From: Thermodesulfovibrio yellowstonii DSM 11347
GTDB lineage: Bacteria; Nitrospirota; Thermodesulfovibrionia; Thermodesulfovibrionales; Thermodesulfovibrionaceae
DNA: 64,000 nt
Assembly: GCF_000020985.1 (NCBI RefSeq)
Contig: NC_011296.1
Coordinates: 1,602,001 to 1,666,000 of the forward strand
Reading direction: 5' to 3'
The notes under the pieces are model-generated. The model did no database searches. It was not told where the DNA came from and saw only the letters and a program-made list of their open reading frames with translations. Positions within the stretch are counted from its first letter, which is position 1. Each line of letters starts with the position of its first letter. A program made the position numbers and the translations under genes. Positions 28,135-58,141 of this stretch are shown piece after piece.

Positions 28135-28809
28135 ATGAAGGGAAAAAACTTTACAAGGAGGGAATTTATAAAGGCTGCTGGAGCTGGTGCCACTCTTTTG
28201 CTTGCTAACAAATTTGGAATTCATTCTTTAGCATGGGCTGATAGTAAAAAGAAAACTTTAAAAATGGTGCTTGTTGACTATACTAAATGCACTGGATGTA
28301 GAACCTGTGAGGCAGTCTGCTCAGCCTATCACAATCCTGTTATAGTTAATGGTAAAAGTCTTCCAGGGCTTGGAAACCCTGTGTATTCAAGAATACGTGT
28401 GCATAGCTTTAATCCAGACGTGGACATCCCCAATGTGTGCAACATGTGTCCTGATGCACCCTGCGTTAAAGCCTGTCCTGTTGAGCCAGAGCCAAAGACA
28501 GGGCGGAGAGCCATTTATAGGGATGAGAAAACTCAAACCATTCAGAATGACCCCAAACGCTGTATTGCCTGCGGAAGCTGTGCAAAAGCCTGTGCTGAGC
28601 AAAGAACTGGTGTTATTGAGCTTGACCCTCAGACAGGAAAACCTCGCCCCACATGTAACCTCTGTGGAGGAGAGCCTCAATGTGTAAAACACTGTCCCTT
28701 CAATGCTCTTTCTGTTGTTGAGGTTAAAACCAGTAGCAAATTTTACGGTAAATCACCCAAAAAGATTGCCACTGAGCTTTCAAAACAGTGGTATGGCAAA
28801 GTAATTTAG
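28135..28809 (+). CDS. Four-cluster ferredoxin with Tat-like leader, AOR partner
   Basis: A 224-residue iron-sulfur protein. The N-terminus TRREFIKAAGAGATLLLA, followed by LAWA, is a twin-arginine leader with a plausible cleavage site. The body has CTGCRTCEAVCS, CNMCPDAPCVKACP, CIACGSCAKACAE and CNLCGGEPQCVKHCP, enough ligands for four 4Fe-4S clusters, as in DmsB/HycB-type electron-transfer subunits. It lies 10 bp before AOR and is probably its electron partner. The Tat leader is odd because AOR has none. Confidence 0.85.
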   Translation: MKGKNFTRREFIKAAGAGATLLLANKFGIHSLAWADSKKKTLKMVLVDYTKCTGCRTCEAVCSAYHNPVIVNGKSLPGLGNPVYSRIRVHSFNPDVDIPNVCNMCPDAPCVKACPVEPEPKTGRRAIYRDEKTQTIQNDPKRCIACGSCAKACAEQRTGVIELDPQTGKPRPTCNLCGGEPQCVKHCPFNALSVVEVKTSSKFYGKSPKKIATELSKQWYGKVI

Positions 28810-28819
28810 GAGGCGTAAA

Positions 28820-30628
28820 ATGAGTTCAATTAAGGGATATTATGGTAAATTGCTTTACATAAACCTTACGACCGGCAAGATTGAAAAAAGGGAAATCCCT
28901 GAGGAAGACCTTGCCAAATTTATCGGAGGACGGGGTTTAGGAGTAAAAATTTTATGGAATCATCTGCAAAAACCCGGAGTTGACCCACTTTCCCCTGAAA
29001 ATCCTCTCATTTTCATGACAGGTCCCTTTTCTGGATTTCCTGTTCCTTCTTCATCAAGAACCTGTGTGGTTACAAAATCACCTATAACATCTCCTGTGCA
29101 TTCTCCCTATCCACATGCATCAACTCTCACATACTCAAATATTGGTGGATTCTTCGGTCCTGAGCTTAGGTTTGCAGGTTATGATGGAATTGTAATTACT
29201 GGTAAAGCAAACTCTCTCTGCTACATTGTGATAGATGACGATAAGGTAGAAATTCGTGATGCTAAGAAATTTAAAGGCATGCGGACAGATGCCTTTGACA
29301 AGGCAATTTTGGAAGAACTCAAAGATAGAAGATATAAAACAGTATACATTGGACCAGCTGGTGAAAATCTTGTCCGATATGCCTCCATACTTCACACTTC
29401 TACCCGTGCAGCAGGTCGTGGCGGGGTGGGATGTGTTATGGGTTCAAAAAATTTAAAAGCTATTGCAGTAAAGGGAAGTAAGCAGCCCGATGTTGCTCAT
29501 CATAAAAAATTTATTGAAATTCTTGAAAAAGCCAGATTAGTGTTAAACAACTCTCCTAATACAAAAAACTGGAGATCCTATGGAACAGCTGGCTATATTG
29601 TAAAAAGTAGTGATCAAGGCACAGAAACAGTGCGTAACTTCAGAGAAGGCACTTTCCCGGAAGCATATAAAATTGGTGCAGAGGCAGCAAGAAGGGATGT
29701 CTGGGTAAGGGATATTGCCTGTATGTATTGCCCACTTGCCTGCAAAAAGAGCGGCCGCACAAAGGGTAAATATGGTGGTATTGTTCATGATGGGCCAGAG
29801 TATGAAACCGGAACAATGCTTGGCTCTAATCTTTTAATATCAGACATGGCTGGTTTACTCAAGATAATCTATAATGTTGATGACCTTGGTTTAGACGCAA
29901 TTTCAACTGGAGCAGTTATCGGATTTCTAATGGAAGCCTATGAAAAGGGAATGATTAATAGAAAATTCCTTGACGGAATTGAGCTTAAATGGGGAAGCGT
30001 TGATGCAACCCTTGCCATAGTACAAAAAATTGCATACAGAGACGGGATCGGAGACCTTGCCTCAAAGGGTGTAAAGGCATTATTTCAAAAAATTGGTCAG
30101 GGTAGTGAAAAGTTTGCCATACATGTAAAAGGACTTGAGCTTGCTGCCCACAACATTCAAGCAAATCCGCCAAGAGCACTCTGCTATGCTACTGCAAACA
30201 GGGGTGGATGTCACTTAAATGGTGACAGTGTTGAAGCGCAGAATTTTAGGGCTATGATTGACTCAACAGGAGTATGTTTATTCGCTGCCATGGATAAAGT
30301 CTATGAAGAACCAATAATTTCCATGCTCAGTGCAATAACAGGAGTTGAATATGACAGAGCACAGTTTCTTAAGGCAGGAGAGAGAGTCTTTAACTTAGAA
30401 AAGCTCTTCAACTACTGTGAGGGCTTCCGAAGAGAAGATGATTGGTTACCTGACCGCTTTTTTGAAGATGCCTTCACAATAGGACCGAAAAAAGGTGCTG
30501 TACTTGATAGGGCTAAGTTCCGTGACATGCTAACTCAATATTACAAAGAAAGAGGTTGGGATCCTGAAACCACCAAACCTACGGAGGCTAAATTAAAGGA
30601 ACTTGAGCTGGATAAAATTATTAGTTAG
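28820..30628 (+). CDS. aor: Tungsten-type aldehyde:ferredoxin oxidoreductase
   Basis: A 602-residue AOR, which oxidises aldehydes to acids (or the reverse with strong reductant) using a tungstopterin and one 4Fe-4S cluster. The family patterns GYYGKLLYINLTTGKIE, GGRGLGVKIL and MTGPFSG open the protein. CMYCPLACKK and the later GVCLF provide the cluster cysteines. Length is standard for the family. It has no signal peptide. It forms an operon with the upstream ferredoxin. The in vivo aldehyde is unknown. Confidence 0.92.
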   Translation: MSSIKGYYGKLLYINLTTGKIEKREIPEEDLAKFIGGRGLGVKILWNHLQKPGVDPLSPENPLIFMTGPFSGFPVPSSSRTCVVTKSPITSPVHSPYPHASTLTYSNIGGFFGPELRFAGYDGIVITGKANSLCYIVIDDDKVEIRDAKKFKGMRTDAFDKAILEELKDRRYKTVYIGPAGENLVRYASILHTSTRAAGRGGVGCVMGSKNLKAIAVKGSKQPDVAHHKKFIEILEKARLVLNNSPNTKNWRSYGTAGYIVKSSDQGTETVRNFREGTFPEAYKIGAEAARRDVWVRDIACMYCPLACKKSGRTKGKYGGIVHDGPEYETGTMLGSNLLISDMAGLLKIIYNVDDLGLDAISTGAVIGFLMEAYEKGMINRKFLDGIELKWGSVDATLAIVQKIAYRDGIGDLASKGVKALFQKIGQGSEKFAIHVKGLELAAHNIQANPPRALCYATANRGGCHLNGDSVEAQNFRAMIDSTGVCLFAAMDKVYEEPIISMLSAITGVEYDRAQFLKAGERVFNLEKLFNYCEGFRREDDWLPDRFFEDAFTIGPKKGAVLDRAKFRDMLTQYYKERGWDPETTKPTEAKLKELELDKIIS

Positions 30629-47456: not shown

Positions 47457-48449
47457 TTATGAAACATCTCTTCCTACGCTCTTAAGAGTGTCTTTCCAGT
47501 ATGAGTAAGAGTTTTTACCTTGAGTTTTGCCCGGATATATTTCATAGAGATTTCTATATATTTCAGAAGTGACATCAGGCATAATAACATTTGCTCCACA
47601 GTAAAATGCCTTAATCCTCATACTGGAGGAAAGACTTCCAAGTGCTGTGGTTGCTGGTAAATTTGCTTTGGGAAGGATAAGCCTCGTGATGGCTAAAACT
47701 TTTAGAGTTAAGAGGGGATCACCAAAAGGATATGAGGTTAAAGGTGTGTCTGGATGAGGGATAAATGGTCCTATGCCAATCATGTCAAGTTCAAGCTCCT
47801 TCATAAGAGCTATATCCTCTGCAAGGGACTCAATGCTTTGTCCCGGAAGTCCTACTATGATGCCTGAGCCTGTTTCATAGCCGAGCTTTTTAAGCCATCT
47901 GAGACATTGAATTCTTCTGTCTAAGGTTGTATCAGGTTTGAGTCTTCTGAAAAGTTTTTCATCGGAAGTTTCAAACTTAAGTAGGTATCTATCTGCGCCA
48001 GCCTCTCTGAGGACCACGTAATCATTGTAACTTAACTCACCTACAGACAAAGTTACTGCCACATTGAGTTTTTTAATCTCTCTTACAACTTTACTCAGTC
48101 TTTCAGCATTCCAGAAGGGCTCTTCTCCAGATTGTAAAACAATAGTTTTGAAGCCTTCCTTTACAGCCTCTGTAGCTACCTTAACTATTTCTTCTTCTTT
48201 CATCCTGTAACGAGGGAGTTTCCTGTTTTCCCTTCTTATTCCACAGAAAAGACAGTTACACTTACAGTAGTTTGAAAACTCTATTATTGCTCTAAGATGG
48301 ACTGTATCTCCGTGAACCTGCTTTCTCACATCATCAGCCATCCGAGCCAATTCCTCAAAAGGAAGCTCTCTTAAAAGATAAAGTATCCAGTCTTTAAGAG
48401 AGGTCTTATTTTTACTTGATGTTAAAGCCGAAATTTCATGGCTATTCAT
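47457..48449 (-). CDS. hydE: HydE, FeFe-hydrogenase maturation radical SAM enzyme
   Basis: A 330-residue radical SAM protein. CKCNCLFCGIRREN carries the SAM-cluster cysteines and LQSGEEPFW the SAM strand. GSGIIVGLPGQSIESLAEDI and MIGIGPFIPHPDTPL are HydE signatures. It acts on the iron-cysteine synthon made by HydG during synthesis of the H-cluster diiron unit. It overlaps hydF by 8 bp and is the last gene of the operon. Confidence 0.93.
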   Translation of the reverse strand: MNSHEISALTSSKNKTSLKDWILYLLRELPFEELARMADDVRKQVHGDTVHLRAIIEFSNYCKCNCLFCGIRRENRKLPRYRMKEEEIVKVATEAVKEGFKTIVLQSGEEPFWNAERLSKVVREIKKLNVAVTLSVGELSYNDYVVLREAGADRYLLKFETSDEKLFRRLKPDTTLDRRIQCLRWLKKLGYETGSGIIVGLPGQSIESLAEDIALMKELELDMIGIGPFIPHPDTPLTSYPFGDPLLTLKVLAITRLILPKANLPATTALGSLSSSMRIKAFYCGANVIMPDVTSEIYRNLYEIYPGKTQGKNSYSYWKDTLKSVGRDVS

Positions 48450-49713
48450 AAATTGCTCTTTCTGTTATTTTCTTTAAAATTTCTATCTCTGCTTTTACCT
48501 CCTTTTCTGCTTCATCTATCATTCCCTGAAGGTGTGGAAAAGGAGAAAGTGCCCTATGAAGAACTCCGTGAATGTGAGCCATTATCACACCATAATTGAC
48601 AATAGGAACACCAGCCCGCTTAGCCTGTAGAATTCTACTAAGCATCTCCTTTCGATTGAGCATGCAGGCACCACAATGAACAATGAGACTGTATTCAGTG
48701 AGATTATCAGGAAGTGGACCACTACCAGCTTTTACCTCAATCTCAACCTCACCTCCAACCTGTGCCCTTAGCCAGCGGGGAATTTTTACTCTTCCAATGT
48801 CATCCTCCACAGGATGATGGGTGCATGCCTCTGCTATGAGCACTTTATCTCCTGGCTTTAGTTTTTTTACAGTTAGAACACCCTCAACAAGTGTCTGCAA
48901 ATCTCCTTTGTAACGGGCAAAAAGAATTGAAAATGATGTAAGCCTTATGTCTGCGGGTGTATCTGCTGCAACTTTATTGTAAACAGAGGCATCAGTAACT
49001 ACAAGTGAAGGTCTTTTATTGAGTAAACTTAGGGCATAAAGCAACTCTCTTTCTTTTACAACCATAGCGATTGCCTCGTTGTCAATAATGTCTCTTATCA
49101 CAATCTGCTGAGGAAGAATTAGTCTTCCTTTGGGTGCAGCCTTGTCAACGGGAATTACGCATATTACTACATCTCCGGGATTTATCAAGTCTCCCAAGAC
49201 TGTAGGAAGAGTCCAGTCTTTTGGAGCATTGTTTACTATAGTCTGTTTAAGCTCAACTATGCCTTCAGCTGTCAGGGCACTTACAAAAACCTTAGGTTCA
49301 GGCAACTCATACTTCTTAGCTTCTGGATGGATATCTATTTTATTTACAACATAAATCAAGGGAGTCCCTGTTTCTTCTGCTTTTTTCACTATATCCCTTT
49401 CAAACTCTCCAAACCCTTTTTCAGGGTCAATTACAAGTAAAACAAGGTCTGTCTTATCAAGCACTTCATAGGATTTCTTTTTTCTTAATTCACCAAGTTT
49501 TCCCACATCATCAATTCCTGCTGTATCAATAAGAACAACCGGTCCAAGAGGAAGAATCTCCATGGCTTTTGCTACAGGGTCTGTAGTTGTTCCGGGAACA
49601 TCAGATACAATCGCGAGAGACTGACCAGTGAGAGCGTTTATAAGGGATGATTTTCCTGCATTTGTCCTTCCAAAGAGAGCTATATGAAGTCTCTGACTTT
49701 TTGGCACACTCAT
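48442..49713 (-). CDS. hydF: HydF, FeFe-hydrogenase maturation GTPase and scaffold
   Basis: A 423-residue protein. The GTPase domain has P-loop GRTNAGKSSLIN, VPGTTTDPVAK, DTAGIDDVG and VNKID. The C-terminal half holds the cluster ligands: EACTHHPVEDDIGRVKIPR and VHCGACMLNRKEM give one histidine region and a CxxC pair. HydF carries the diiron precursor and passes it to apo-hydrogenase. It overlaps hydE by 8 bp and the upstream small gene by 4 bp. Confidence 0.94.
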   Translation of the reverse strand: MSVPKSQRLHIALFGRTNAGKSSLINALTGQSLAIVSDVPGTTTDPVAKAMEILPLGPVVLIDTAGIDDVGKLGELRKKKSYEVLDKTDLVLLVIDPEKGFGEFERDIVKKAEETGTPLIYVVNKIDIHPEAKKYELPEPKVFVSALTAEGIVELKQTIVNNAPKDWTLPTVLGDLINPGDVVICVIPVDKAAPKGRLILPQQIVIRDIIDNEAIAMVVKERELLYALSLLNKRPSLVVTDASVYNKVAADTPADIRLTSFSILFARYKGDLQTLVEGVLTVKKLKPGDKVLIAEACTHHPVEDDIGRVKIPRWLRAQVGGEVEIEVKAGSGPLPDNLTEYSLIVHCGACMLNRKEMLSRILQAKRAGVPIVNYGVIMAHIHGVLHRALSPFPHLQGMIDEAEKEVKAEIEILKKITERAIYE

Positions 49714-50042
49714 GGAGTTGTCTCCTTTGAAAGCAGCATTTTTATGGTTGATATGATTTCATCTTTCTCGGTGATTCTCTCCCATTCATTGGAGACAGCA
49801 GCGTATCTGTCATTGATATAAATTAACTCTGGTGGAAGAAATGAGTCTTCTTTGTGTCCGGCTATGTATGAGTGTCTCTTTCCCATTATTTCTACAAACC
49901 AAATGTGGGCATTGTATTTTTCTTTGACAAACTCTGCTATTTTGTTTAATTCAAGAAGGAGATTCTTAGCCTTCGGCTCAGAATGACAAATGGATGGCTC
50001 AGAATGAAGAGTCTCCTTAGAAATATAGGTCTCTTTCGCCAT
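49710..50042 (-). CDS. Hypothetical protein between hydG and hydF
   Basis: A 110-residue protein from an ATG at 50042, chosen for the GGAGG 9-10 bases upstream; it overlaps hydG by 26 bp and hydF by 4 bp. The middle part (YNAHIWFVEIMGKRHSYIAG, ELIYINDRYAAVSNEW) reads like a folded, conserved protein. The N-terminal third includes residues encoded by a dispersed repeat (49958-49987), so a mobile repeat has been absorbed into the reading frame. The gene could be a hydrogenase accessory factor or merely a passenger; I do not recognise the family. Confidence 0.6.
   Translation of the reverse strand: MAKETYISKETLHSEPSICHSEPKAKNLLLELNKIAEFVKEKYNAHIWFVEIMGKRHSYIAGHKEDSFLPPELIYINDRYAAVSNEWERITEKDEIISTIKMLLSKETTP
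49958..49987. repeat. Dispersed REP-like repeat inside a hydrogenase-operon gene
   Basis: GGAGATTCTTAGCCTTCGGC and then TCAGAATGAC matches the repeat family at 12124-12149, 20339-20375 and 37039-37065. A diverged second half (GGCTCAGAATGAAGAGTCTCC) follows at about 49996-50016. It encodes CHSEPKAKNLLLE on the minus strand. Confidence 0.65.
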
Positions 50043-51522
50043 TTTTAATCCTCCCGTAGTATTCAATGAGCTTGTTGTAAACTTTATGAGGCACTTTTGC
50101 CTTTAACTCGTCAAGCTCCTTCTGAATAACTTTCTCTCCTGCCTCCTTTGTCTGCTCAGAGGCAAAGTCATCAAGCCATTCTCTGAAAGTAAGCACTGCA
50201 TTGAGTTTACAGAATACTGCCTCTTTTCCTGTCTTAAGCAAACTCATTATTCTATCTCCTGTTCTTCCACATCTGTAACCGGCTGTGCAAAAGCTTGTAA
50301 TAAAACCCATCTCTGCAAGTTCTCTGATTACTTCGTCAAGGCTACGGGGGTCTCCAATCTCAAACTGCTGTCGCTCAAGCTCCTGTTCTGTGTAACGGTC
50401 AGAGTATGCACCAATTCCTATTTTTGTGGATGCATCTGTCTGGGTTATCATTCCTGAAGCTATGATTTCTCTTCTTATGTGAGCAGGCTCTCGGGCAGTA
50501 AGTATCATGCCTGTGTAGGGAACAGAAAGTCTTATCACTGCAATGAGTTTTTTGAAGTCCTCATCGGAAACTTTATATCTTGTCTCCTGCACAAAGGGAG
50601 TGTTTGCTGCAGGCTCAAGCCGTGGGAAAGAAATTGTATGGGGACCGATTCCAAAGCGTTTCTCAAGCTCCCTTGCATGATAGACAAGTCCCATAACCTC
50701 AAATCTCCAGTCATAAAGTCCAAAAAGTACTCCCAATGCCACATCATCAACTCCCGCTTCAAGGGCTCTGTGATGGCAGTAAAGCCTCCATTGATAGTGG
50801 TGTTTAATTGTTCCCTTAGGATGAAGCTTTGCGTATGTGTCATGATGATAGGTCTCCTGAAAGACCTGATATGTGCCGATTCCAACTTCCTTAAGCATCT
50901 TTAACTCATCTATGCTCATTGGTGCGGCATTCACATTAACCCTTCTTATCTGCCCGTATCCGTTTTTTGTTTTTACCTTGACAGAGTAAATAGTCTCTAT
51001 CGTATCTCTTATGTAATGAACTCCTGTTGCAGGATGCTCACCGTAAACAACAATAAGTCTTTTATGTCCTATCTCACCAGCAAGCACCTCTGCCTCTCTT
51101 TTTACTTCTTCAAGAGTTAGCACCCTTCTTTTAATCACATGATTGTCTCTTCTGAAACCACAGTAAACGCAGTTATTCACACATAGATTTCCACAGTAAA
51201 GAGGTGCGAATGTGACAATTCTGTTGTCATAAACCTTTTTCTTTACCTTTGCTGCTACATCAAAAACCTCTTGCCAGAGTTCCGGGTCTTTAAGATTAAG
51301 CAAAGCTGCTGTCTCATCGGAAAGAAGTGTTTCAATTGAAAGGGATTTCTGAAGTATATCCCTTATTCGGGATGGTTCTGGATTCTGATTTTGCTTTAGT
51401 TTTTCCCAGATTTCCTCATCGTCTATGAAGTCCCTCCCGCCTTCCATATACTTTTCTATCTCTTCTTCCTTAATCACGCTGTTTATCCAGTTTTTTTCCT
51501 CTTTTGCTAAAACAGCTTTCAT
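50017..51522 (-). CDS. hydG: HydG, FeFe-hydrogenase maturation tyrosine lyase
   Basis: A 501-residue radical SAM enzyme that splits tyrosine to release CO and cyanide as iron ligands. CGNLCVNNCVYCGFRRDN carries the SAM cluster. The C-terminal auxiliary cluster ligands are in FCTAGYRCGRTGDRIM. FQETYHHDTYAKLHPKGT is a HydG/ThiH signature. HydG is told from ThiH by this C-terminal CTAGYRCG region and by its place among hydE and hydF. It overlaps aspA by 4 bp. Confidence 0.95.
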   Translation of the reverse strand: MKAVLAKEEKNWINSVIKEEEIEKYMEGGRDFIDDEEIWEKLKQNQNPEPSRIRDILQKSLSIETLLSDETAALLNLKDPELWQEVFDVAAKVKKKVYDNRIVTFAPLYCGNLCVNNCVYCGFRRDNHVIKRRVLTLEEVKREAEVLAGEIGHKRLIVVYGEHPATGVHYIRDTIETIYSVKVKTKNGYGQIRRVNVNAAPMSIDELKMLKEVGIGTYQVFQETYHHDTYAKLHPKGTIKHHYQWRLYCHHRALEAGVDDVALGVLFGLYDWRFEVMGLVYHARELEKRFGIGPHTISFPRLEPAANTPFVQETRYKVSDEDFKKLIAVIRLSVPYTGMILTAREPAHIRREIIASGMITQTDASTKIGIGAYSDRYTEQELERQQFEIGDPRSLDEVIRELAEMGFITSFCTAGYRCGRTGDRIMSLLKTGKEAVFCKLNAVLTFREWLDDFASEQTKEAGEKVIQKELDELKAKVPHKVYNKLIEYYGRIKNGERDLYF

Positions 51523-52937
51523 TTTAAAAGCCTCCTTAAGTATTTAATCCCGGCAAAGCCGGGAGTTGTTAATTCCTGTGGTTGAGTTATGCTCTCAATC
51601 TCTTCCTTTGTGAAAAATCCTCTCTCAATCAGGATTTCTTCAACTCTTTTGCCTGTGCTTAAAGCCTCTTTGTAAATCTCTGCACAGACTTCATAGCCAA
51701 GATAGGGAGAAAAGGCAGTTATAATACAGGAGCTTCTATCAAAAAGCTCTCTACATCTTGCCTCATCAACGGTTATTTCTGAGATGCATCTCTCCCTGAA
51801 AAGTGTTGAACAGCTCTTAAGCATCTTTAAAGAACCAATAAGTTCGTGTGCTATAAGCGGTAGAAACGGGTTAAGCTCAAGATTTCCCATGCTACAGGCA
51901 AAGCTTACTGCATGGTCTGATACAATCACTTTTATTCCAACCTGTGTAACCATCTCAGGAATAACGGGATTTACCTTTCCAGGCATTATTGATGAGCCAA
52001 CCTGAACAGCAGGAAGCCTTAACTCACCTATTCCTGCTTTTGGTCCAGAGCTTAAGAACCTTAAATCTGAAGCGATTTTTATAAGGTCTGAAGCTAAGGT
52101 TTTAAGATATCCTGATACTTCAGATAGAGAGTCGGTATTCTGAGTTGCCTCAAAGAGATTCTCTGCTTTTGCAAGGGGAAGCCCTGTAAATTCTCGAAGT
52201 TTCTCTATTGCCATATCAATGAAAATTTTGGGACAGTTAAGTCCTGTGCCCACAGCAGTTCCGCCGAGACTGACCTGACGAACCCTTTCTACTGCCTTAT
52301 TCAGCCTCCACCAGTCCCTGTTTAAAGCCTCTGCCCATGCAGAAAACTCCTGCCCCACTGTAACAGGAACAGCGTCCTGGAGTTCAGTTCTTCCAACCTT
52401 AAGAATTTTTGCATATTCCTTTTCTTTTTTCTGAAACTCACCTTGAAGTAAAGCAACCTCATCTGCGAGCTCTCTCAGAAGCCTTACAATCGCGGTTTTT
52501 ACAGCTGTGGGGAAAACATCGTTCGTTGACTGATTTAGATTTATGTGAAGGAGGGGATGAATTACATCGTAGATACCTTTTTCAAATCCCATAAGCTCAA
52601 GGGCTCTGTTGGCAATAACCTCGTTAATATTCATATTAAGTGTTGTGCCTGCTCCACCTGAAAGAGCATCAACGATAATCTGTCCATCTAAGTTACCTAC
52701 TGCCAGCTCATCGCAGGCTTTAAGAATTGCCTCTGCCTTGCTGTTTTCAAGCATTCCAATCTCTCTGTTAACCCATGCACAGGCTTTCTTGACAATAGCC
52801 ATTGCCCATATGAGCTCCCTGTGAGGAGGCTGTCCTGTGACAGAAAAGTTTTCCTTTGCTCTTAATGCATGAATACCGTAGTAGGCATCCTTCGGAATAG
52901 AAAGCTCACCAAGAGAGTCCCTCTCTATGCGTATCAT
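51519..52937 (-). CDS. aspA: Aspartate ammonia-lyase
   Basis: A 472-residue member of the aspartase/fumarase family. GSSIMPGKVNPVIPEMV is the family signature, with SGGAGTTLNMNINEVIANRA and QSTNDVFPTAVKTA earlier, both aspartase-like. It converts aspartate to fumarate and ammonia. It sits inside the hydrogenase maturation operon, overlapping both hydG and the regulator gene by 4 bp, an association seen in other FeFe-hydrogenase bacteria. It may supply ammonia for the azadithiolate bridge; that is inference. Confidence 0.9.
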   Translation of the reverse strand: MIRIERDSLGELSIPKDAYYGIHALRAKENFSVTGQPPHRELIWAMAIVKKACAWVNREIGMLENSKAEAILKACDELAVGNLDGQIIVDALSGGAGTTLNMNINEVIANRALELMGFEKGIYDVIHPLLHINLNQSTNDVFPTAVKTAIVRLLRELADEVALLQGEFQKKEKEYAKILKVGRTELQDAVPVTVGQEFSAWAEALNRDWWRLNKAVERVRQVSLGGTAVGTGLNCPKIFIDMAIEKLREFTGLPLAKAENLFEATQNTDSLSEVSGYLKTLASDLIKIASDLRFLSSGPKAGIGELRLPAVQVGSSIMPGKVNPVIPEMVTQVGIKVIVSDHAVSFACSMGNLELNPFLPLIAHELIGSLKMLKSCSTLFRERCISEITVDEARCRELFDRSSCIITAFSPYLGYEVCAEIYKEALSTGKRVEEILIERGFFTKEEIESITQPQELTTPGFAGIKYLRRLLK

Positions 52938-53194
52938 TTCTTCTCCTTTTCAGAGATAAGAAGGCTTTTTACAGTTACACCTTTTATCATTCCAAGCTTT
53001 CCTGTAAGAGAGCCTATTCGGTCTGTGTTTCCTTCTACAAAAAGTGAGATAAAGCCAGTGTCTGTCTCTTTTTGAGGTATTCCCATTCTGGCAAGAATTA
53101 TCTCTGCATGCTCAGATAGGATTTGGTTTACTAAAGGAGCATTTTTATTTCTTTCAGCTACGATTATTCCAACAATTCCAATCTTTCTATTCAT
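52934..53194 (-). CDS. TM1266-type putative iron-only hydrogenase system regulator
   Basis: An 86-residue ACT-like protein. RKIGIVGIIVAERNKNAPLV, ARMGIPQKETDTGFISLFVE and LTGKLGMIKGVTVKSLL match the family named as a putative FeFe-hydrogenase regulator, a small alpha/beta fold similar to the NikR ligand-binding domain. It has no DNA-binding domain, so regulation would be by protein contact or ligand. It overlaps aspA by 4 bp. Confidence 0.85.
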   Translation of the reverse strand: MNRKIGIVGIIVAERNKNAPLVNQILSEHAEIILARMGIPQKETDTGFISLFVEGNTDRIGSLTGKLGMIKGVTVKSLLISEKEKK

Positions 53195-53284: not shown

Positions 53285-53566
53285 TTATCCGAAAACTACG
53301 CTTCCGCCGTCAAAAACTTCTTTCAAAGCCATGAGGTCACATAAAAGCTCCTCATCTTTAATCTCACTTGCGCATTCTTCAATTATTTCGCTTATCTTGC
53401 TTATGTATTTTTCATCAAGAATAAACCAATCATTATAGGTAGTCTTTACAGCCTCAGTGTTATGAAGAAGATAGCTTTTCTTTGAGAGAACTTCTGAGAT
53501 TTGCATCAGCCTTTCAATTGTTGTAAACCAGTATTTTCTGTTGCCGAGACTATAATAAACCACCAT
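53285..53566 (-). CDS. Small hypothetical protein in the hydrogenase operon
   Basis: A 93-residue protein starting at 53566 (MVVYYSLGNRKYWFTTIERL), chosen because GAGGAG lies just upstream; an ATG at 53593 in frame lies in a hairpin. It is acidic and helical towards the C-terminus (ISKISEIIEECASEIKDEE) with two cysteines. It lies between the small hydrogenase subunit gene and the TM1266-type gene, 90 bp from the latter. I do not recognise a family. The position suggests a hydrogenase-related role. Confidence 0.55.
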   Translation of the reverse strand: MVVYYSLGNRKYWFTTIERLMQISEVLSKKSYLLHNTEAVKTTYNDWFILDEKYISKISEIIEECASEIKDEELLCDLMALKEVFDGGSVVFG

Positions 53567-53582
53567 TTTAAACTCTCCTCTA

Positions 53583-53604
53583 AGCCCGGGCATTAGCCCG
53601 GGCT
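53583..53604. promoter_or_regulatory. GC-rich hairpin between hydrogenase structural and accessory genes
   Basis: AGCCCGGGC (53583-53591) and GCCCGGGCT (53596-53604) form a perfect 9-bp stem with a 4-base loop, unusually GC-rich for this region. It lies 4 bp beyond the small-subunit stop. No T-run follows, so it may be an mRNA processing or stability element that lets structural genes be expressed more than the maturation genes. Confidence 0.6.
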
Positions 53605-53608
53605 AATA

Positions 53609-53935
53609 CTATACCCTTGCCTTGTAATGCGTATGCAACAATGCTTCACTTACTTCACTTAAAGGATGATGAGCAAACTCAGAGTAAAACCTTTTTATCA
53701 TCGGGTTTTCATGGGATGCGGCCATTTTAAATTTCTCTCTTGATATAACGTCATCCTTATACTGCCCGGACTGTCTTGCTTTTATGAGTTTAAGTCTTTC
53801 TTTTCCGACCTTTGTCTCAAAAAAGTTTTTCTCTGCTGTATCACCAGCAAAAGATGGCTTTGTAAAGGAAAGGCTGATAATTCCAGCACCTGCTAATTTT
53901 AGAAAAGACCTTCTTGTAAGCTTTCTGATTTTCAT
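53609..53935 (-). CDS. hydB: Periplasmic FeFe-hydrogenase small subunit with Tat leader
   Basis: A 108-residue protein. The leader KLTRRSFLKLAGAGIISLS has the twin-arginine motif and ends at SFA, a good cleavage site. The mature part has EKFKMAASHENPMIKRFYSE and HHPLSEVSEALLHTHYKARV, the iron hydrogenase small-subunit domain. As in Desulfovibrio, it would escort the leaderless large subunit through the Tat pore to the periplasm. It overlaps the large-subunit gene by 4 bp. Confidence 0.87.
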   Translation of the reverse strand: MKIRKLTRRSFLKLAGAGIISLSFTKPSFAGDTAEKNFFETKVGKERLKLIKARQSGQYKDDVISREKFKMAASHENPMIKRFYSEFAHHPLSEVSEALLHTHYKARV

Positions 53936-55329
53936 AGTTTGCCTCCTTCAAAGTTTTTTACAAGAGAATAAAAAAGCTGGTCTAAGAGAGAAAGTTCAAT
54001 TGGATGAACTGGCTGTCCACCTCCGTTAATACAGCCACCAGGACAGTTCATTACCTCTATGAAGTGATAGGGGCTTTTACCTGCTAAAACTTCTTCAACA
54101 ATTGGCTTCAGATGTGCTGCATCTGTTCCTATGCCATTTACTACACAGACCTTGACCTGAAGTTCTTTTGTTCCGAAAGCCTTCTGATATTCTTCTCTTA
54201 GAGGAACAGGAATAGTTGCTGAGACAACAGGTTTTGTAAAACCTCTCACACCTTCAAAATCCCATTTAGGACTCATTGCCTGTGGCTCCTGCCCGGAGAG
54301 AACATGAAAGGCAAATCTTACAGCTGCTTCCATAACTCCACCGCTTGTGCCAAATATAGTAGCACCACCTGAGTAAAATTTGAACATCTCAGGTTTTCTG
54401 CTTGCATCCTCAGACATTTTCATTGGGTCTATGTTCATACGCTTTAGAAGTTCTGCAAGGTCTCTTGTTGTTAGAACTGCATCCACATCTCTCATACCTG
54501 ACTTCTTTAAATACTTTCCTGCAGAATCAAATTCAGGACGGGAGGCTTCAAATATTTTTGCTGTACAGGGCATTACTCCAACGGTGAAAATATTCTCAGG
54601 TTTCGCTCCCCAAAGCTTTGCACCGTAGGTCTTTGCTGTTGCTCCTGCCATCTGCTGGGGTGATTTGGCTGAAGAAAGGTAGGGAATAAGTTTTGGATAG
54701 AAAACTTCTACATATCTTACCCATGCGGGACAGCAGGAAGTAAACTGTGGTAGGGGATGATGAGAGAACTCTTTGATATCAAGAGTTATTTTTTTCCCCC
54801 AGAGTTCAACAGGTAACTGTTTAAGCCCTGCATGGGCTGCTACTTTTGCAAGTAACTCTGTGCCTTCCTCAAGAATTGTCTGGTCAGCGGCAAAGTTGTT
54901 GTCATAGATTAAAAAACCTGCTTTTTCCAAAGCAGCCCATAGTCTTCCCACTGTAAGTGTGCCTGGCTCAGCACCAAACTCTTCTCCAATGGCAACTCTC
55001 ACAGCCGGAGCAATAATTGCAACAACCTTAGTTTTTTTGTCTTTAAGTTTTGCCATTACCACATCAACAAAGCTCATCTGTTCAACTGCACCAAAAGGAC
55101 AGTTAAGCAGGCACTGACCACAGTTGATACATTTGTCAAGGTCAATGCTGTGTTTGTCTCCGAAGGAGCCTTTTACTGCTCCTGCAGGACAAACACTGCT
55201 ACAGGTATGACAGCCAACACAATTACCCTCGTTGATTTTGATTATTCCTCTTAGCTCTCCTGCTCTGTAAGTTCCTGTCTGTGACTTCACTGCACCGTTA
55301 CCCTTGAATGTGTTTACTTTTCTTACCAT
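53932..55329 (-). CDS. hydA: FeFe hydrogenase large subunit (probably periplasmic)
   Basis: A 465-residue catalytic subunit. Two 4Fe-4S motifs open it (CVGCHTCSSVCP, CINCGQCLLNCP). The H-cluster motifs are complete: FTSCCPAWVRY, MPCTAKIFEASRPE and EVMNCPGGCINGGGQP. It lacks a signal peptide and lacks the C-terminal small-subunit domain, which is encoded separately downstream with a Tat leader. This matches a periplasmic H2-uptake enzyme. No cytochrome partner gene lies nearby. Confidence 0.92.
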   Translation of the reverse strand: MVRKVNTFKGNGAVKSQTGTYRAGELRGIIKINEGNCVGCHTCSSVCPAGAVKGSFGDKHSIDLDKCINCGQCLLNCPFGAVEQMSFVDVVMAKLKDKKTKVVAIIAPAVRVAIGEEFGAEPGTLTVGRLWAALEKAGFLIYDNNFAADQTILEEGTELLAKVAAHAGLKQLPVELWGKKITLDIKEFSHHPLPQFTSCCPAWVRYVEVFYPKLIPYLSSAKSPQQMAGATAKTYGAKLWGAKPENIFTVGVMPCTAKIFEASRPEFDSAGKYLKKSGMRDVDAVLTTRDLAELLKRMNIDPMKMSEDASRKPEMFKFYSGGATIFGTSGGVMEAAVRFAFHVLSGQEPQAMSPKWDFEGVRGFTKPVVSATIPVPLREEYQKAFGTKELQVKVCVVNGIGTDAAHLKPIVEEVLAGKSPYHFIEVMNCPGGCINGGGQPVHPIELSLLDQLFYSLVKNFEGGKL

Positions 55330-55347: not shown

Positions 55348-57117
55348 TTATTTTTTTCCTCTCGGTGTGTAATGAGTGTGAAGTAACTCATGTGATAGAT
55401 GACCGAGAGGTTCCTTAAGGAATTCTTTGTAGATTGCCTGAATTTCAGGATTTTCATGACTTTTTCTGAGAGGCATCTTTCTATCTCTTTCATAAATTCC
55501 AGCAATTCGCATCTCCCTCTTTTCAACAGTTGTGGGAATAGGCTGTCCGCCGCCACCAATACATCCACCAGGACAGGTCATAACTTCAATAAAATGATAA
55601 TCCTTGAGCTCACCTCCTCTTACCTTTTCTATAAGTTGTCTTGCTGCACCAAGGGAGTGAGCAACGAGAACTTTCACTGTTAATCCATTCATGCTCACAG
55701 AAGCTTCTTTAATATCTTTCATTCCTCTTACATCTTCAAAGTCAAGCTTCTGAAGGGTTTTGCCTGTCACCACCTCATAGGCTGTTCTTAAGGCGGCTTC
55801 CATAACTCCACCTGTTGCTCCAAATATCTGGGCTGCACCTGTTCCTTCTCCCATAACAGGGTCATAGGCTGAGTCTGGCAGTTTGGCAAAATCAATCCCT
55901 GCTTCACGTATCATTCTTATTAGTTCTCTTGATGTAAGAACTACATCTACATCCCTTGAGATATTGGGATTTTTCCAGAATTTTGCCGCTGCGTTCATCT
56001 CAGGTCTGGCTGCTTCATATTTTTTAGCTGTGCATGGCATTATTGAGACAACAAAGATATCTTCAGGAGAAATGCCTTTTTTCTGGGCATAATAGGTTTT
56101 TGCTATTGGACCGAGCATTTGTTGAGGAGACTTACAACTTGAAATATGAGGAATCAGGTCAGGGTAAAACTCCTCAAGAAACTTAATCCATCCAGGAGAA
56201 CATGATGTAAACTGAGGCAGCACTCCTCCGTTTTTAATTCTGTGGATAAGCTCGTATCCCTCTTCCATTATGGTGAGGTCTGCAGACCAGTTTGTATCAA
56301 AGACTGCATCAAATCCAATTCTTTTGAGTGCACTGACCATTTTACCGGTAATATCTGTTCCAACAGGTAAGCCAAAGGCTTCACCTATGCTGACGTGGGT
56401 TGCCGGTGCGGTCTGAACAACTACGTGTTTCTTCGGGTCTGCAATTGCTTCCCATACCTTCCATGTATCATCCCTTTCAACAATAGCAGCAGTGGGACAG
56501 ACAAGGGCACACTGTCCGCAGGCAACACATTGAGTTTCAATAATTGGCTTTCCACCTAAGGGACGAACTACCGCATCATAGCCATTTCCGTAGAGTTCAA
56601 GGATATCAACGGACTGAAGAACCTTGCATGCAGTTATACATCGCTGACATATGATACACTTGTTAGGATTTCTAACTATTGATGGAGATGAGTCATCAAT
56701 TGGCAAATCTTTTTTCTCACCCTGCGGTCTTATCTGTCTTACATTAAGCTCTGCACAAACTGCCTGAAGTTCACATATGCCGTTTTTCGGACAGGTTGGA
56801 CAGTCAAGATGATGTTCACTCAGCATCATTTCAAGATTTAGCTTTCGGGCAGCTAAAATCTTAGGAGTATTGGTTCTTATGACCATGCCTTCTTGAACAG
56901 GCGTATTACAGGATGAAACAAAATCTCCCTTTCCCTCTACTTCTACTACACAGACCCTGCAAGCTCCTATATCGTGTTTGATATGCCTTAATCCGACATG
57001 GTCAAGAAAACAGAGAGTTGGAATTTTCACGCCTACCTGTTCAGATGCTTTAAGTATAGTAGTTCCCTCTGGCACAGTGACCTTTTGTCCATCAATTGTG
57101 ATTGTTACGTTAGCCAT
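55348..57117 (-). CDS. FeFe hydrogenase catalytic subunit, cytoplasmic multi-cluster form
   Basis: A 589-residue enzyme. The N-terminal 2Fe-2S domain (CFLDHVGLRHIKHDIGACRV and later SCNTPV) is followed by the His-ligated cluster region (HHLDCPTCPKNGICELQ) and two 4Fe-4S motifs (CIICQRCITACK, CVACGQCALVCP). The H-cluster motifs are FTSCSPGWIKF, MPCTAKKYEAARPE and EVMTCPGGCIGGGGQP. The small-subunit domain is fused at the C-terminus (ELLHTHYTPRGKK). It lacks a leader and so acts in the cytoplasm. No NADH-binding HydB/NuoF with FMN site is encoded here; the partner is the protein encoded just upstream. Confidence 0.93.
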   Translation of the reverse strand: MANVTITIDGQKVTVPEGTTILKASEQVGVKIPTLCFLDHVGLRHIKHDIGACRVCVVEVEGKGDFVSSCNTPVQEGMVIRTNTPKILAARKLNLEMMLSEHHLDCPTCPKNGICELQAVCAELNVRQIRPQGEKKDLPIDDSSPSIVRNPNKCIICQRCITACKVLQSVDILELYGNGYDAVVRPLGGKPIIETQCVACGQCALVCPTAAIVERDDTWKVWEAIADPKKHVVVQTAPATHVSIGEAFGLPVGTDITGKMVSALKRIGFDAVFDTNWSADLTIMEEGYELIHRIKNGGVLPQFTSCSPGWIKFLEEFYPDLIPHISSCKSPQQMLGPIAKTYYAQKKGISPEDIFVVSIMPCTAKKYEAARPEMNAAAKFWKNPNISRDVDVVLTSRELIRMIREAGIDFAKLPDSAYDPVMGEGTGAAQIFGATGGVMEAALRTAYEVVTGKTLQKLDFEDVRGMKDIKEASVSMNGLTVKVLVAHSLGAARQLIEKVRGGELKDYHFIEVMTCPGGCIGGGGQPIPTTVEKREMRIAGIYERDRKMPLRKSHENPEIQAIYKEFLKEPLGHLSHELLHTHYTPRGKK

Positions 57118-57135
57118 ATTTATCCTCCTCAGAAA

Positions 57136-57960
57136 TTATTTAAGCATTACTGTCTGCCAGCCTGGATTGGCTGGAATACTATGACCACAGCTTCCTTTCA
57201 AGTGAGCCTCTATATCGCTTTTGCAGTGTTGAAGAGCAAATTTGACTGCTTTTCCTGCCATTAATCCAAGGTCACATTTGCTTGATGCTCCAATATCATC
57301 TGCAAAGTATTCTAAAAGAGAGAGTTCTCGTGTAGATATGGAACCGTCAAAAATCTTTTTTACCATCTCTTGCATTCTCTTCGTGCCTATTCTGCAAGGA
57401 ATGCACTCTGCACAGGAGTTTTCTTGGGCGTAGCTCAGGAAAAAGTCAATCATCTCAGCCATGCATTTGTCTTCCTCCCAGAATAGTTTTCCTGCGGAGC
57501 CAACGGTTGCTACAGTACGCGAAAGAGTCTGCCAGTCAATATCAACAGGAGTTTTGAGAGATAGAGGACCGAGGCTTTGAATCTTTTCAACAAATTCCTT
57601 TGCTACCTGAGAAAACTTAAGCCCTTCTGAACCAGAAATCCATTCAAGTCTTACTCTTTGTTTCGGAATTCCAATTACTTCAAGAAATCTTGTGAGAAGA
57701 TTAAATCTTCGGTTTGCATAATAGTTTCCTGTTTTGTAATGACAGTCTCCGGGATGACATCCTGCAACTAATACACCATCTGCACCTGACAGAAAGGCTT
57801 TAATTACAAACTCTGGCTCAACTCGTCCTGAACAGGGAACTCTAACAGGATACAAGTAGGGTGGATAACTATACCTTAAAGAACCTGCCATATCCGCTCC
57901 TGCATAGCTACACCAATGACATAAAAAGGCAATAACCTTAGGCTTGAAGCCCTGCTCCAT
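57136..57960 (-). CDS. MvhD-like protein fused to a NuoF-type 4Fe-4S C-terminal domain
   Basis: A 274-residue fusion. Residues 1-140 resemble MvhD/FrhD-type delta subunits (VIAFLCHWCSYAGADMAGSL, VPCSGRVEPEFVIKAFLSGA, VAGCHPGDCHYKTGNYYA), which carry a 2Fe-2S cluster between hydrogenase and heterodisulfide reductase. Residues 170-255 match the C-terminal 4Fe-4S domain of NuoF (ENSCAECIPCRIGTKRMQEM, then SKCDLGLMAGKAV). The FMN/NADH-binding domain of NuoF is absent. It is the first gene of the operon and probably links the cytoplasmic hydrogenase to a Hdr-like flavoprotein encoded elsewhere. Confidence 0.82.
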   Translation of the reverse strand: MEQGFKPKVIAFLCHWCSYAGADMAGSLRYSYPPYLYPVRVPCSGRVEPEFVIKAFLSGADGVLVAGCHPGDCHYKTGNYYANRRFNLLTRFLEVIGIPKQRVRLEWISGSEGLKFSQVAKEFVEKIQSLGPLSLKTPVDIDWQTLSRTVATVGSAGKLFWEEDKCMAEMIDFFLSYAQENSCAECIPCRIGTKRMQEMVKKIFDGSISTRELSLLEYFADDIGASSKCDLGLMAGKAVKFALQHCKSDIEAHLKGSCGHSIPANPGWQTVMLK

Positions 57961-58100: not shown

Positions 58101-58141
58101 TTGTTAACAACAAACATATCACAAAATTTTTATTTTGTCAA
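58101..58141 (-). promoter_or_regulatory. Sigma-70 promoter and palindromic operator of the hydrogenase operon
   Basis: On the minus strand TTGACA (58141-58136) and TATGTT (58118-58113) are exactly 17 bases apart. A perfect palindrome TTGTTAACAA lies at 58101-58110, directly after the -10. It resembles half of the redox repressor Rex family of sites, but the spacing is not a full Rex site, so the regulator is open. The ATG of the first gene is about 150 bases away. Confidence 0.7.

Follow-up and report, generated by a model that had tools for sequence, protein, structure and literature searches.

The locus analysed here raises the question of what a HydABC-type [FeFe]-hydrogenase exchanges electrons with when the gene directly upstream of it encodes not a NuoF/HydB subunit but a fusion of an MvhD domain with the C-terminal part of NuoF. 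The locus lies in a stretch of 64,000 nucleotides (hereafter the window, to which coordinates refer unless stated otherwise) of the Thermodesulfovibrio yellowstonii DSM 11347 genome, a single contig of 2,003,803 bases (NC_011296.1, positions 1,602,001 to 1,666,000). The first-pass annotation of the window had proposed that this fusion links H2 to an Hdr-type complex instead of supporting NADH bifurcation.

The fusion protein and its hydrogenase

The gene of the MvhD–NuoF adaptor (57136–57960, minus strand) encodes a protein of 274 aa, within which Pfam recognizes a complete FlpD domain (PF02662, residues 9–131, E-value 9e-52, 174.7 bits), i.e., the MvhD [2Fe-2S] domain, followed by a complete NADH_4Fe-4S domain (PF10589, residues 170–253, E-value 4e-20, 72 bits), i.e., the C-terminal [4Fe-4S] domain of NuoF and HydB. 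The same search of the 274-aa protein detected neither the FMN-binding Complex1_51K (PF01512) nor the SLBB domain. All ligands of the [4Fe-4S] cluster (C183, C186, C189, and C229) are in place, and the conserved cysteines characteristic of the MvhD/FlpD family are likewise all kept. Among proteins of solved structure, MvhD of the Mvh-Hdr, Elp-Hdr, and Fdh-Hdr complexes corresponds to the N-terminal part, with 54% identity to chain D of 5ODC in the structural match, while residues 138–256 align to residues 412–530 of the 599-aa HydB of A. woodii. This indicates that MvhD has taken the place of roughly the first 410 residues of HydB, the NADH/FMN module among them; the C-terminal 2[4Fe-4S] domain of HydB is missing as well.

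An AlphaFold2 model of the fusion (mean pLDDT 75, pTM 0.55) was built with alignment A1, as in alignment A2 the NuoF-C part was misaligned onto FlpD and that alignment was dropped. With these values the folds of the domains are usable, but their relative arrangement is not. Foldseek searches with this model gave MvhD chains as the best matches of the N-terminal half (TM-scores normalised to the target of 0.79–0.85) and HydB, NfnB, and NuoF chains for the C-terminal half. Thus, Pfam, AlphaFold2, and Foldseek agree on the two-domain composition that had been read from the window, and the claimed lack of the NADH/FMN-binding domain is borne out by the Pfam search. The same architecture occurs in eight genomes of two phyla, so it is not an artefact of assembly or a frameshift. 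A promoter-like site at 58141–58113 was rejected, since equally good matches arise by chance.

The fusion gene ends 18 bp before hydA (55348–57117, minus strand), which encodes a group A [FeFe]-hydrogenase catalytic subunit of 589 aa, composed of an N-terminal 2Fe-2S domain, a NuoG-like HCCC site, two ferredoxin-type clusters, the H-cluster, and a fused small-subunit domain. The first four of these features (with 2x[4Fe-4S] sites) are those of HydABC of group A3. HydA carries no Tat signal, and the Tat-targeted small subunit that marks periplasmic HydAB enzymes (group A1) pairs with the second large subunit of the operon (see below). The protein scores 858 bits against NCBIfam NF040763, the model of the NADH-dependent group (cut-off 765). 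Among solved structures, it is closest to HydA1 of the bifurcating enzymes from T. kivui (661 bits) and A. woodii (644 bits), ahead of CpI with about 485. In a tree of 41 [FeFe]-hydrogenase large subunits, the fusion-linked HydA proteins form one clade among the NuoF-linked, HydABC-type ones. The L1 motif variant TSCSPGW, with Ser for the second Cys, could have indicated that the enzyme is inactive or unusual; this was dismissed, because HydA1 of A. woodii and most NuoF-linked HydAs carry it too. In each of the six loci of HydA relatives that were fully inspected, a NuoF/HydB-type protein is encoded directly upstream of HydA, which means that the fusion stands in the slot of HydB.

An NADH-bifurcating enzyme would need the missing flavin domain from elsewhere. 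The fusion carries the sole NADH_4Fe-4S domain of the host genome, and no Complex1_51K domain was found in 16 Thermodesulfovibrio genomes (the host included) and three Thermodesulfobacterium genomes, although the same search detected it in nine of the 14 control genomes. This agrees with the published observation that complex I of Thermodesulfovibrio lacks the NADH dehydrogenase module (PMC5165239). NADH bifurcation by a HydABC-type enzyme is therefore unavailable in these genomes, and the earlier statement that the enzyme does not bifurcate to NADH is well supported; a full NuoF serving it from another locus, which would have spoken against this, was searched for in the host, its genus, and Thermodesulfobacterium and was not found. 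Among the ORFs around the operon, none encodes a NuoE/HydC-like subunit.

Ancestry of the fused FlpD domain and candidate electron acceptors

We consider it reasonably likely (a probability of about 0.6) that HydA and the fusion make up a soluble complex in the cytoplasm, through which H2 exchanges electrons with an HdrA-centred complex and not with NAD(H). The evidence for the acceptor comes mainly from the FlpD domain. A phylogeny of 122 FlpD domains places the fusions together with the MvhD proteins of Thermodesulfovibrio and Thermodesulfobacterium in one clade (support 100/100), which also holds MvhDs of two Archaeoglobaceae and one Peptococcaceae. The free MvhDs of this clade are encoded, in the operons inspected, in the order HdrA-HdrC-HdrB-MvhD-MvhG-MvhA, with the exception of one Archaeoglobaceae locus without MvhGA. 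Inside the clade, the branching order of fused and free copies is not firm, and owing to a long branch the tree of NuoF-C domains gives no deep placement of the fusion.

The fused FlpD and the free MvhD of the host share 61% identity. Fifty positions are identical across all sampled fusions and all free MvhDs of the clade, and five positions fixed in the free proteins were never seen in the fusions. Between the two genera, the fused FlpD shows 74% identity, the free MvhD 77%, and the NuoF-C part 58%, i.e., the FlpD surface is held as tightly as that of the HdrA-docking protein.

Besides one complete HdrACB-MvhDGA operon, the T. yellowstonii genome encodes QmoABC, with an FlpD domain of its own, and a stand-alone HdrA-like protein of 609 aa (genome positions 603062–604858; L136:7039-8865), whose gene is flanked by genes for a 2[4Fe-4S] ferredoxin and a TusA-like protein. 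HdrABC appears to be the most likely partner, as the fused FlpD is of the same kind as the MvhD of HdrABC itself. Support for the proposed bridge to an Hdr-type complex is indirect: the FlpD domain falls into the HdrACB-MvhDGA clade, its conserved positions are kept, and a complete operon is present, but no hdr gene lies in the [FeFe]-hydrogenase operon. It also counts against the bridge that HdrABC-MvhDGA is complete without the fusion and found in fusion-free relatives, and that in one Thermodesulfobacterium genome (G366) an insertion sequence sits in HydA, whereas the fusion has stayed intact.

Co-occurrence with HdrA, suggested earlier as a check, proved uninformative. Full-length HdrA does accompany the fusion in five of five fusion-bearing Thermodesulfovibrio genomes and in one further fusion-bearing genome (G329), with a fragment at a contig end as the only HdrA of G301 and interrupted or truncated copies seen in G366; it is, however, also present in five of the six well-covered fusion-free Thermodesulfovibrio genomes, so that co-occurrence neither supports nor refutes the link to Hdr.

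The alternative that survives best shares the flavin-free, NAD-independent, cytoplasmic HydA–fusion complex and differs in the acceptor: the FlpD domain would serve free ferredoxin, the 609-aa HdrA-like protein, or a membrane or DsrMK-type partner, and not HdrABC. The lack of a linked hdr gene speaks for it, as do the existence of this third HdrA-like protein beside a ferredoxin gene and the enrichment of Sporomusa MvhD in membranes (PMC9430772). We regard it as unlikely, although worth keeping in mind, given that the fused FlpD is specifically of the HdrACB-MvhDGA kind and that the 609-aa HdrA-like gene is present across the genus, including genomes without the fusion.

Several features of the hdr and mvhD genes were observed in passing. 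The HdrA gene of the HdrACB-MvhDGA operon (L135:9999-12005, minus strand; about 1,328,000–1,330,000 of the genome) contains a single in-frame TGA where the sequence MDCSA(C)ILTPK has its Cys, so that its product is probably a selenoprotein. One TGA and one Cys copy of HdrA lie side by side in G329, and other Thermodesulfovibrio genomes differ in TGA or Cys. Many MvhD-like matches in Nitrospirota also contain a single in-frame TGA (e.g., G144:C42:51231-51641 and G048:C18:116722-117120), which suggests that selenocysteine homologs of MvhD are widespread in this phylum.

A second hydrogenase in the operon and the distribution of the module

The fusion opens a minus-strand operon running from 57960 down to 47457 (10.5 kb, with gaps of at most 90 bp and mostly overlapping genes). 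HydA is followed by a second [FeFe]-hydrogenase large subunit (53932–55329), a small subunit (53609–53935; Pfam Fe_hyd_SSU) with an N-terminal twin-arginine signal (RRSFLK), a 102-aa ORF (53285–53593), a TM1266-family putative regulator of iron-only hydrogenase systems (52934–53194; TIGR03959, PF21699), an aspartate ammonia-lyase-like gene (51519–52937), which overlaps its neighbours by 4 bp, the H-cluster maturase HydG (50017–51522; TIGR03955), a 118-aa ORF, the H-cluster maturation GTPase HydF (48442–49713; TIGR03918), and the H-cluster maturase HydE (47457–48449; TIGR03956). The 102-aa ORF has no match in Pfam or NCBIfam and is missing from the corresponding position in Thermodesulfobacterium. 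The aspartase-like gene is also found in the Thermodesulfobacterium loci, and lies downstream of the hydrogenase in L007, L213, and L214. In at least one other genome (L186) it likewise follows the hydrogenase, next to HydA; a role in maturation is possible. Elsewhere in the window (28135–30628), an aldehyde ferredoxin oxidoreductase-like gene is preceded by a gene for a 4Fe-4S protein with a twin-arginine-like signal.

The Fe-only hydrogenase genes THEYE_A1725–A1728 of T. yellowstonii were described by Frank et al. in 2016 (PMC5165239) as one four-subunit enzyme, probably periplasmic, which would unite the Tat small subunit, the second large subunit, HydA, and the fusion. This published reading fits the close spacing of the four genes, −4 to 18 bp within one operon, and the Tat signal on the small subunit. 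Nevertheless, HydA has a small-subunit domain of its own, while the second large subunit has none (nor a 2Fe-2S or HCCC domain, only two ferredoxin-type clusters) and would obtain it from the Tat protein, which argues for two enzymes and not one. Furthermore, the best PDB matches of the second large subunit are to the Desulfovibrio periplasmic enzyme, and in the tree of large subunits the cytoplasmic, HydABC-like clade of fusion-linked HydAs is far from this periplasmic-type protein. The partners of MvhD known so far are also cytoplasmic, and a single four-subunit enzyme is, in our opinion, highly improbable. The second large subunit and the Tat small subunit most likely constitute a separate, periplasmic enzyme, as judged from their sequences. 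Together with the HydA–fusion module, the operon would then equip both sides of the membrane, and it may be speculated that the two hydrogenases cycle H2 as a pair.

The fusion has a narrow distribution. Among 296 sampled genomes of the host phylum it is limited to five Thermodesulfovibrio genomes, and among 395 genomes from the phylum of T. thermophilum it was found in three only (G301, G329, and G366). In a scan of 84,980 species genomes, the sole addition among the best 80 matches listed was T. thermophilum itself. Three further candidates (G506, G369, and L044), in which matches ran beyond the FlpD domain, turned out on inspection to be separate genes and were rejected. A search for both genes covered 11 Thermodesulfovibrio genomes: five carry the [FeFe]-hydrogenase together with the fusion and six carry neither. 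The fusion lies directly upstream of HydA in eight genomes of Thermodesulfovibrio and Thermodesulfobacterium, and the order fusion-HydA-HydA2-Tat SSU-aspA-HydG-HydF-HydE is common to both genera, from which we infer that the fusion–hydrogenase module was probably transferred between the two phyla.

In the Thermodesulfobacterium genome G366, the HydA gene is interrupted by a transposase gene (L214:9195-12302), and HdrA by a copy of the identical transposase (L212:4210-7566), the other HdrA copies seen being truncated. If HydA and HdrA have been lost together, this would be consistent with a functional link between them, in this single case.

Proposed electron transfer and relation to known complexes

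By analogy with HydABC and the Hdr complexes, the electron path of the HydA–fusion complex may be outlined as follows. H2 would be split at the H-cluster of HydA, as is known for the family and as the motifs present allow, and the Fe-S chain of HydA would carry the electrons to its N-terminal [2Fe-2S] cluster, as in HydABC. The NuoF/HydB C-terminal domain of the fusion is predicted to dock on HydA in the manner of HydB, so that electrons could pass from this [2Fe-2S] cluster to the [4Fe-4S] cluster of the fusion and further to the [2Fe-2S] cluster of its FlpD domain. As MvhD does in Mvh-Hdr, Fdh-Hdr, and Elp-Hdr, the latter would deliver them to the HdrA subunit of HdrABC, whose genes lie at another locus, and the FAD of HdrA may bifurcate the electrons received. 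The MvhD domain would thereby stand in for the NADH/FMN module. The docking interfaces, the identity of the partner, and the direction of electron flow are the predicted parts of this scheme, and the opposite direction, i.e., H2 production, fits equally. That the fusion is instead a degenerate HydB remnant, which only stabilises HydA or takes ferredoxin electrons and whose FlpD has no specific partner, would account for the loss of the FMN domain and the HydB C-terminal 2[4Fe-4S] domain and for a model without a firm domain arrangement, but it is the least probable explanation, given that every FlpD and [4Fe-4S] ligand cysteine is kept, that the fused FlpD equals free MvhD in conservation and exceeds the NuoF-C part, and that the architecture persists across two phyla.

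The complex proposed for HydA and the fusion combines features of several known systems. It shares with HydABC of group A3 (PDB 7Q4V, 8A6T, and 7P8N) the HydA subunit, the C-terminal [4Fe-4S] domain of HydB, and the order in which the partner gene precedes hydA, but its partner has MvhD in place of the FMN/NADH domain and lacks the C-terminal 2[4Fe-4S] domain, and no HydC was found nearby. With the electron-bifurcating H2:heterodisulfide/ferredoxin complex MvhAG-MvhD-HdrABC (PDB 5ODC) it shares the MvhD-type [2Fe-2S] connector and the H2 substrate, and HdrABC and MvhAG are themselves encoded in the host genome. It differs in that the catalytic subunit beside the fusion is an [FeFe] HydA and not the [NiFe] MvhA of group 3c (MvhGA being encoded at another locus), that the connector is fused to NuoF-C, and that the genes lie apart from hdr. 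In anaerobic bacteria, FlxABCD-HdrABC and MetVF-MvhD-HdrABC also employ an MvhD-like connector to HdrA; their donors are NADH or methylene-THF enzymes and not hydrogenases (PMC5861303, PMC5606693).

MvhD is known to link the Mvh, Fdh, and Elp modules to HdrA, and under nickel limitation Elp takes the place of Mvh (PMC12350162, PMC6085437). The Elp-Hdr complex of Methanothermobacter (PDB 8RVU) may be regarded as the nearest conceptual precedent, as its input module has no catalytic domain of its own and passes electrons to HdrA via an MvhD homolog (PMC12350162). Like Elp, the host module would be a nickel-free alternative input to HdrA, and each lacks a catalytic domain of its ancestral module. 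Elp takes electrons of F420H2 via an FdhB-like flavoprotein, whereas for the host module the predicted donor is H2 via HydA, with no flavin involved. In those parts of the open-access literature naming MvhD with NuoF, HydB, or [FeFe]-hydrogenase that were available, no description of an MvhD–NuoF-C fusion was found.

The HydA–fusion module could thus be a nickel-free and flavin-free alternative to [NiFe] MvhAG-MvhD on the same HdrABC. The full proposal, i.e., nickel-free, H2-driven, HdrA-based bifurcation in thermophilic sulfate reducers, in which an [FeFe]-hydrogenase with MvhD for the NADH module replaces [NiFe] Mvh on the same HdrABC, combined with transfer of the module between phyla, is tentative, and we hold it at somewhat less than even odds.

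The two-enzyme reading of the operon would correct the published account of these genes as a single four-subunit periplasmic enzyme. If the link to Hdr is true, hydrogenases and Hdr complexes would be more interchangeable than assumed, and HydABC and Mvh-Hdr, regarded as independent solutions for electron bifurcation, would share a natural adaptor by which an [FeFe]-hydrogenase directly feeds HdrA. Such an adaptor would also offer a ready-made component for connecting [FeFe]-hydrogenases with Hdr complexes. For the sulfate reducers themselves, it would mean that they gain H2-linked Hdr chemistry without nickel, in parallel to the Elp-Hdr switch of methanogens.
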